Source: an uncultured Pseudomonadota bacterium
GTDB lineage: Bacteria > Pseudomonadota > Alphaproteobacteria > Rs-D84
Direction of reading: 5' to 3'
Assembly: GCA_902795435.1 (NCBI GenBank)
Contig: CADBLE010000007.1
Span: 1-43,803 of the forward strand
Length of the DNA: 43,803 bases
The notes below the pieces were generated by a model. It made no database searches. It was not told the DNA's origin and worked only from the letters and a program-made list of their open reading frames with translations. This document shows positions 25,336 to 26,791 of this stretch, piece by piece. Each line of letters opens with the position of its first letter. Position 1 is the stretch's first letter. The position numbers were made by a program, and so were the translations under genes.

Positions 25336-25365
25336 TTGTGTTGAATATACGATTTTTGATAAAAT
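25336..25365 (+). promoter_or_regulatory. Candidate promoter of the paralog B leader
   Basis: TTGTGT (25336-25341), 18-bp spacer, TAAAAT (25360-25365). Transcription would begin near 25372, about 30 bases before the mini-ORF ATG at 25402. The stretch 25181-25335 holds nothing else I can identify. Confidence 0.5.
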
Positions 25366-25401
25366 GGGAATGAAAGGAAAAAAGAGAAGAAAGGAAAAAA
25401 C

Positions 25402-25467
25402 ATGAATACGCTGAAAGGCGCAGTTTTCTACACACACACACACACACACACACACACACACAGATAG
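25402..25467 (+). CDS. Possible leader peptide with Thr-His repeat (21 aa)
   Basis: The ribosome site GAAAGGAAAAAAC precedes an ATG reading MNTLKGAVFY, then five Thr-His pairs, then Arg and TAG. The repeat is encoded by the (AC)16 tract. The stop lies 17 nt before a perfect hairpin (25484-25506), and a strong terminator follows (25513-25555). The layout (promoter, short ORF rich in one or two amino acids, hairpin, terminator, structural gene) is that of a transcription attenuator. A change of one AC unit would shift the frame, so the tract may act as a length switch. Translation is unproven. Confidence 0.5.
   Translation: MNTLKGAVFYTHTHTHTHTHR
25430..25461 (+). repeat. (AC)16 dinucleotide microsatellite
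   Basis: Thirty-two bases of uninterrupted AC within the mini-ORF. The window start (ACACAG...) shows the tail of what is probably the same tract in the other leader copy. Tracts of this length are prone to slippage. Confidence 0.95.
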
Positions 25468-25483
25468 TTTCTTTGCGTGATTG

Positions 25484-25555
25484 TTGTGCGAATGAAATTC
25501 GCACAAGATTGAAAACAGACAAATAACGTTGATGACGTTATTTGTCTGTTTTTTT
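25484..25555 (+). terminator. Leader hairpin and intrinsic terminator upstream of paralog B
   Basis: Hairpin TTGTGCGAAT-GAA-ATTCGCACAA (25484-25506), then a 17-bp terminator stem (25513-25529 with 25535-25551) and T tract. It ends 27 bases before the paralog B ATG at 25583. It is nearly identical to 27-98. Confidence 0.85.
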
Positions 25556-25582
25556 ATTTAACAAAAAAAAGGAAGGAAGAAA

Positions 25583-26791
25583 ATGTCACAAAAAATCTTT
25601 TTAACATCCGCCCTTGCAATGGGCGTGTTTGCGCCGGCATTTGCGGAAATGACGGATTCCAATACATTCCCAAATGCGTCTCAGGGTGAATATATGCAGG
25701 AAAACACCAGATATATTGGTGCCGCAACATCAACAAATATGGCCGGTGTGTATGAAGACGGTGCAACCGTAGATGCGGTCGCAGAATACGATATCATAGA
25801 TTATATCGTAAATGCGGGACAATATTTGCCTGCGGATTCCGAAACCGTAATAACATGTCCGGCGGGCTCGTTTTGTCCGGGAATCAGCGGTAATGTAAAT
25901 TATAATCAAAATTCTGACCAGGGTATACAAACATGTCCAAACGGCTATACAAATTCAGTTGCTGGATCATCTGCAAATACAGACTGTTACAGAACTTGTG
26001 CCACAACAGATATAACACATGCAACAGCAATAACAGGTAATGTCTATTTTAACGGTACCAATGGTGACGGTGTAAAAGCATGTACCCCAACAGCATGCGA
26101 CAATGGATATCATCCAAAATCAGCCACACCAAATTTAACAACAGTAATCGGCACAAGTGAAGCAGGTACAGGATATACATCAAACGATAGTACGGGTTCT
26201 GAGTTCGGCACAAACGGTATGTCAAATTCAGTTATCTCAGGGGATTCAATGGCGTTCGCCGTGGACTATGGTAATAAAGGAATGATAAAAGGTCACGGAA
26301 GATGTAGTACACAAAGTGGAAGTCGTGGAAATATGTCGGGTGGCACATATCCTGATATAACAATACGTGCAGATTTAACAAATCAACCAGGACAATATTG
26401 CTATTGTCATTTGGATAGCTATACGCCAGTTAGTGGCAGTGCTATTGCCTTGTCGGGTCCTTGGGTGTTCTACTACGACTTCGGCCCCGCTGGCGCTTGC
26501 GCGGCTTACTGTGAGCGCGGCTGTGCGCGCAACCTGCTGTACGGCGACTCGGGCAACCTCGCGTTCCGTGCTGCGGTGTTTGGTGCAATAGAATCAAGTC
26601 CAGCCATGTGTGAAGCAAACACAATTACAATTAATTGGTCGAATGCAGATGCAAACGATATATCCGCAAACAATGCGGGTACCGCAACGTATGGCGAAGA
26701 CGTCAGAACCCCAGTCAAGGCCGCAACCAAGAAAGGTCAAACATTCCGTGGCTGGAGATTCAGCGCACCGGAACAAACCAATTTGCCATAA
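25583..26791 (+). CDS. Secreted cysteine-rich surface protein, paralog B (402 aa)
   Basis: Signal peptide 1-21 (cleavage after FAPAFA), then the constant N-terminal module: NTFPNASQGEYMQENTRY, YLPADSETVITCPAGSFCPG, GIQTCPNGYTNS. The centre (about 150-335) is unlike paralogs A and C. It includes a Gly/Ser-rich part and a Cys/Ala-rich part, AGACAAYCERGCARNLLYG, encoded by a GC-rich patch (26453-26582). The C-terminal 60 residues (TITINW to FRGWRFSAPEQTNLP) match the other two almost exactly. AAGGAAGGAAGAAA is the ribosome site. The leader upstream carries the microsatellite mini-ORF and terminator. Confidence 0.85.
   Translation: MSQKIFLTSALAMGVFAPAFAEMTDSNTFPNASQGEYMQENTRYIGAATSTNMAGVYEDGATVDAVAEYDIIDYIVNAGQYLPADSETVITCPAGSFCPGISGNVNYNQNSDQGIQTCPNGYTNSVAGSSANTDCYRTCATTDITHATAITGNVYFNGTNGDGVKACTPTACDNGYHPKSATPNLTTVIGTSEAGTGYTSNDSTGSEFGTNGMSNSVISGDSMAFAVDYGNKGMIKGHGRCSTQSGSRGNMSGGTYPDITIRADLTNQPGQYCYCHLDSYTPVSGSAIALSGPWVFYYDFGPAGACAAYCERGCARNLLYGDSGNLAFRAAVFGAIESSPAMCEANTITINWSNADANDISANNAGTATYGEDVRTPVKAATKKGQTFRGWRFSAPEQTNLP

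Follow-up and report, generated by a model that had tools for sequence, protein, structure and literature searches.

A secreted-protein gene in the reduced genome of an uncultured gut alphaproteobacterium is preceded by a small open reading frame (ORF) that runs over an AC dinucleotide repeat and is followed by a hairpin and a terminator. This arrangement raises the question of what decides whether transcription reaches the gene: the supply of an amino acid, the length of the repeat, or neither. The gene (25583–26791) encodes a 402-residue surface or secreted protein with a signal peptide and is predicted to be controlled by the leader; like the other parts of this locus, it is on the forward strand of the 43,803-nucleotide stretch that was analysed (the window). 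The promoter comprises TTGTGT (25336–25341) and, at a spacing of 18 nt, the extended −10 element TGA-TAAAAT (25357–25365). The ribosome-binding site AAAGGA (25390–25395) precedes the leader ORF, which at the assembled tract length spans 25402–25467 (MNTLKGAVFYTHTHTHTHTHR; peptide MNTLKGAVFY(TH)5R), from the ATG at 25402 to a TAG at 25465–25467. The frame-setting microsatellite occupies 25430–25462. It is followed by hairpin 1 (25483–25505), a perfect 10-bp stem with a GAA loop, and by a predicted intrinsic terminator (25511–25555), whose arms at 25511–25530 and 25534–25553 form a 15-bp core, or 20 bp including an A/U extension, with seven T residues at 25549–25555. A AGGAAGGA site lies between the terminator and the ATG at 25583. 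The sequence-only reading had described a promoter, a ribosome site, a mini-ORF over the AC tract, a hairpin and a terminator, all of which are present at the positions it gave; the tract that it counted as (AC)16 has 16.5 units, and the stem that it measured as 17 bp comprises 15–20 bp depending on the A/U extension.

To analyse the reading frames, the first stop codon past the tract was recorded for each of the three. In the window, two frames close early, at TAG (+2) and TGA (+15, 25478–25480), while the third stays open up to TAA at +61 (25524–25526), inside the 5′ arm of the terminator. The mini-ORF end at 25467, as originally described, is thus correct for one frame; another frame crosses the hairpin and reaches the TAA in the terminator. 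When a ribosome footprint of about 30 nt was placed at each stop, the terminator retained 20–21 pairs for the +2 and +15 stops and none for the +61 stop. The window copy, with its 33-nt tract, sits in the predicted OFF frame.

We consider it likely, from these features and the comparisons below, that the leader is a phase-variable transcription attenuator. RNA polymerase would start at the upstream promoter, and ribosomes would translate the leader ORF over the AC tract. Replication slippage would alter the tract in 2-nt steps and thereby shift the frame beyond it. In two frames the ribosome would halt at TAG (+2) or TGA (+15), allowing the 20-bp terminator to fold and to end the transcript ahead of the surface gene (OFF). 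In the third, it would cross hairpin 1 and halt at the TAA within the terminator 5′ arm, where its footprint would prevent the terminator from forming, so that transcription would continue into the surface gene (predicted ON). Hairpin 1 probably serves as a pause that holds ribosome and polymerase in step, a role assigned by inference. Translation of the leader ORF, the function of the terminator and frame-dependent ON/OFF expression are likewise deduced from sequence. The earlier proposal had been that expression depends on antitermination coupled to translation, on tract length, or on both. Since the frame depends on tract length, and the arrival of a ribosome at the terminator depends on the frame, the two amount to one mechanism, and as such the proposal is well supported by the comparative evidence.

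The 98 nt following the tract fold with −37.2 kcal/mol, compared with a mean of −17.5 kcal/mol for shuffled sequences (z = −6.5). Among ten distinct leaders, 95 percent of the stem positions form standard pairs and ten pairs are altered on both sides, a level of covariation reached in 0 of 500 shuffles. The terminator helix is paired in every one of the ten (100%), and the compensatory changes occur in both hairpin 1 and the terminator. The extended −10 element is found 60–73 nt before the tract in most homologous leaders of the attenuator type.

The alternating Thr and His codons, together with the hairpin and terminator, resemble the leaders of his and thr operons, and the sequence-only reading had envisaged control by a Thr/His-rich leader peptide. 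In classical amino-acid attenuation, stalling at these codons under a shortage of charged tRNA would switch the RNA between alternative folds. However, neither the minimum free energy folds nor those constrained by a footprint contain an alternative antiterminator pairing that would compete with the terminator. An Rfam search of the leader returned no his or thr leader and nothing at the gathering score, and sub-threshold hits such as SCARNA7 were taken as chance. In addition, the tract is unstable in length, and the targets are secreted proteins. An AC repeat codes for Thr-His in any frame, and homologous leaders with (AG)n tracts code for Arg-Glu; the Thr-His content therefore appears incidental and amino-acid sensing unlikely. 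With conserved regulatory codons absent, Thr/His sensing was rejected, and we assign classical attenuation only a minimal probability. The conserved feature is the reading-frame logic, which is kept with either an AC or an AG unit.

The draft genome to which the window belongs is about 90 percent complete and comprises 0.95 Mb in 15 contigs. All 12 AC tracts of at least 9 units in this genome sit at leaders of one common architecture, with 10.5–23.5 units each, and every one of these leaders is followed either by a secreted-protein gene of the paralogous set or by the end of a contig. Taken with the folding z-score and the compensatory stem changes, this association places the leader arrangement far beyond chance. 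One further copy is represented by its 3′ end only, at the contig start (1–129), before a gene at 127–1464 that it is predicted to control; this fragment and the copy at the end of contig C12 may be two halves of one leader. Contigs C1, C7, C12 and C13 break at leaders, which implies that short-read assemblies of the genus may lose or misjoin surface-gene loci. A paralog at 42418–43635 has no AC leader. Its different upstream region (42135–42417) contains possible long-range pairings (TAAGAAC/GTTCTTA and CATTTTCAG/CTGAAAATG), a terminator-like hairpin near 42350–42380 and a sub-threshold Rfam match to sRNA-Xcc1 (36.4 bits, cut-off 53).

Tract length differs at 5 of 5 loci that have orthologs in the genome of a sister species (G156), with flanks 88–97 percent identical. 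The paired tracts measure 21/31, 27/35, 31/55, 27/23 and 31/21 nt. These lengths are consensus values from draft assemblies, and the variation is that seen between species and between paralogs.

Across the genus, a degenerate leader pattern identified about 100 sites in 32 of 156 genomes, while the reversed control gave one or two matches. Two frames closed within 20 nt and one open were found at 89 of 104 related sites. Of 16 attenuator-type leaders, 15 have their late stop within or beyond the terminator stem or at most 8 nt ahead of it; in the sixteenth this stop falls 10 nt before the stem, within the ribosome footprint. The exact position varies among copies. One hairpin variant of the window's genome (tgtataaattgcgtg...) carries an indel that shifts the frame and swaps the roles of two frames, giving stops at +2 and +19 and the terminator TAA at +63, and a copy in which about 30 nt are duplicated nonetheless runs to the terminator (+94). 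The diverged leaders of G029 (+52), G001 (+48, with an (AG)10 tract), G032 (+50, AG) and G168 (+50, AC) have late stops 4–6 nt before the terminator stem. The open frame is occupied at 27 of the 94 sites with a start codon and a ribosome site (29 percent; p = 0.38 against one third). The four sites with very short tracts (9–13 nt) and a start codon, in G064, G067, G076:C16 and G031, without exception have the open frame, which would follow if only copies in the predicted ON state survive repeat loss. The sites are homologous, so these counts are not independent and the frame pattern is partly inherited.

How much weight the frames can bear was assessed with shuffled sequences. One frame stays open to the terminator with a probability of 0.54–0.99 per leader; the open frame alone was consequently rejected as proof. 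Its combination with two early stops is rarer, mostly 0.03–0.25. Given how common an open frame is in shuffles and the shared ancestry of the sites, the frame pattern is support rather than proof. The same result can be read in favor of an inert remnant, in which tract and terminator are neutral and expression of the gene relies on constant read-through or a different promoter. Some copies are indeed damaged: the leader at C8:56383 (L015) has lost its promoter and start codon through a deletion, and in that at C4:155431 (L013) an internal duplication has left none of the frames running as far as the terminator. Both are predicted to be locked OFF. However, decay would not account for the compensatory changes in both hairpins, the conserved extended −10 element, or a frame logic that recurs across diverged genomes and for both repeat units, and we regard a neutral leftover as improbable. 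At two other loci, C1:3291 (L011, about 2820–2990) and C6:148656 (L014, upstream of 5692), an insert separates the start of the leader ORF from the tract. The first ORF ends early there and a second start, GTG, lies just before the tract; the predicted ON call at both rests on this second, downstream start.

The strong terminator after a short transcript and the many near-identical copies would also suit a small regulatory RNA that ends at the terminator and acts in trans, with the repeat as its target site. Against this, the start codon, the ribosome site and the three-frame stop pattern are conserved, and the ribosome site and ATG of the secreted-protein gene follow within a few tens of nucleotides of the terminator. 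A role in trans is thus exceedingly unlikely.

The relatives also contain a second design. In G114, G118, G155, G166 and other sister loci, the tract forms part of the secreted-protein ORF, at its 5′ end, and the signal peptide follows the tract in one frame. By sequence, these loci represent ordinary translational phase variation, and their arrangement supports translation of the tract in the leaders. Such switching, driven by slippage of a short repeat close to the start of an ORF, is known for surface genes, e.g. Neisseria opa, and these sister loci resemble it. In the window, by contrast, the switched ORF is a separate leader. The prevalence of the translational design invites the view that the window is a case of the same kind, its tract belonging, now or formerly, to the 5′ part of the surface gene and its terminator being incidental. 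However, in-frame stops prevent any frame from passing from the leader into the gene, and the ATG of the gene is a new one with its own signal peptide; we therefore find this view very unlikely. Because the gene is set apart from the leader by a terminator and has a ribosome site and an ATG of its own, the output of the window locus should be transcriptional.

A scan of 84,980 species genomes yielded 94 stretches with the leader motif. All of the matches listed are metagenome-assembled genomes titled Alphaproteobacteria, Proteobacteria or Rickettsiales, and they include Candidatus Enterousia merdequi, rumen genomes and horse genomes; others, judging by how they are named, we regard as bins from termite guts. 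Among the matches listed, the motif is restricted to gut Alphaproteobacteria (Candidatus Enterousia and termite relatives). No viral copies of the leader were found. The genus Enterousia belongs to the uncultured order Rs-D84 (PMC12306168), and neither that paper nor the literature searched contains a description of repeats in Enterousia.

In the Escherichia coli pyrBI, trp, his and thr attenuators, formation of a terminator depends on translation of the leader, and in pyrBI the ribosome reaches into the terminator. Here the signal would be the length of a DNA repeat rather than a metabolite, and both a regulatory codon run and a competing antiterminator are lacking. The closest parallel is found in the pil1 and pil3 loci of Streptococcus gallolyticus, where a leader ORF contains GCAGA repeats that shift its reading frame (Danne et al. 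2014, PMC3894217). In pil1, the longer leader ends within the terminator or 4 nt before it, upon which pilus transcription rises; mutations that affect the leader start or the terminator have the effects which that model predicts, and about 30 percent of the cells are ON for pil1/pil3 (PMC3894217). The two systems share a leader ORF, provided with start codon and ribosome site, that contains a repeat whose unit length is not a multiple of three, an intrinsic terminator between this ORF and a surface gene, short frames that stop well before the terminator, and a long frame that stops at or in it. In S. gallolyticus, surface structures are controlled and the ribosome keeps the terminator from forming, as we propose for the present leaders. 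The notion that such a system would be without precedent does not hold, the same logic having been shown experimentally in S. gallolyticus; beyond pil1/pil3, we found no other experimentally shown case of a repeat-switched transcription attenuator in the literature searched. The differences are nevertheless considerable. A GCAGA pentamer at two loci of a Firmicute contrasts with AC or AG dinucleotides at no fewer than 12 loci of a 0.95-Mb genome and across gut Alphaproteobacteria; the latter system also has an additional covarying hairpin ahead of the terminator, as well as translational sister loci. Two of three frames are ON in pil1, whereas one of three is predicted to be ON here, and the pil1 target is a pilus operon, whereas the present targets are secreted proteins without pilus-type family matches. 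In view of the repeat units and the non-pilus targets, the leader is described as working like pil1 and is not filed in the pil1 lineage; homology is not claimed. The present leaders show such an arrangement in another phylum, at multiple loci (at least 12), with another repeat unit and alongside a translational version.

The leader and its gene seem to have arrived together. In G156, G029 and G001, yifB directly adjoins tspO, with no leader or surface gene between them. In the window, a cassette of about 2 kb (approximately 25226–27190; leader, gene and 3′ flank) is inserted at this position, and leader and gene thus appear to move together. Short GC-rich repeats (cttcgtcgcgacaggccgtctccg) occupy 26880–26990, 3′ of the surface gene and within the cassette, and are absent at the empty sites. 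Within the gene, a GC-rich, adenine-poor block with NNC codons (26459–26575) matches the variable repeat of a diversity-generating retroelement (DGR); the same block occurs at C4:156602, C6:147549, C8:55255, C9:43219, C13:6425, C4:104008 and C5:34199. A relative, G092 (C49), carries together a template repeat with AAC/GAC codons (L303:678–794), a small ORF and a reverse transcriptase. Of the 31 mismatches between the window block and this template, 23 are at template adenines, and for five pooled copies mismatches occur at 95 of 164 adenines and 51 of 418 other positions. No reverse transcriptase was found in the window's own genome, about 90 percent of which is covered. This pattern indicates, at the sequence level, that several of the target genes carry a DGR-type variable repeat.

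Through the length of its ACACAC repeats, the bacterium can probably switch each surface protein on or off at random. A broader picture, to which we give somewhat less than even credence, is a two-layer system of antigenic variation in a gut alphaproteobacterium with a reduced genome. In it, transcription of a dozen paralogous surface genes would be turned on and off, each independently of the others, by repeat-length attenuators, and a diversity-generating retroelement would rewrite the variable part of several of them. The attenuator would have been derived from, or have given rise to, the translational repeat switches of the same lineage, and it would move as a leader-plus-gene cassette. 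A pil1-like logic at 12 or more loci of a genome below 1 Mb would constitute a natural experiment on how an attenuator originates and is copied. The frame rule would be readable directly from metagenomic reads, and the surface proteins that an uncultured gut bacterium expresses would become predictable from its DNA alone.
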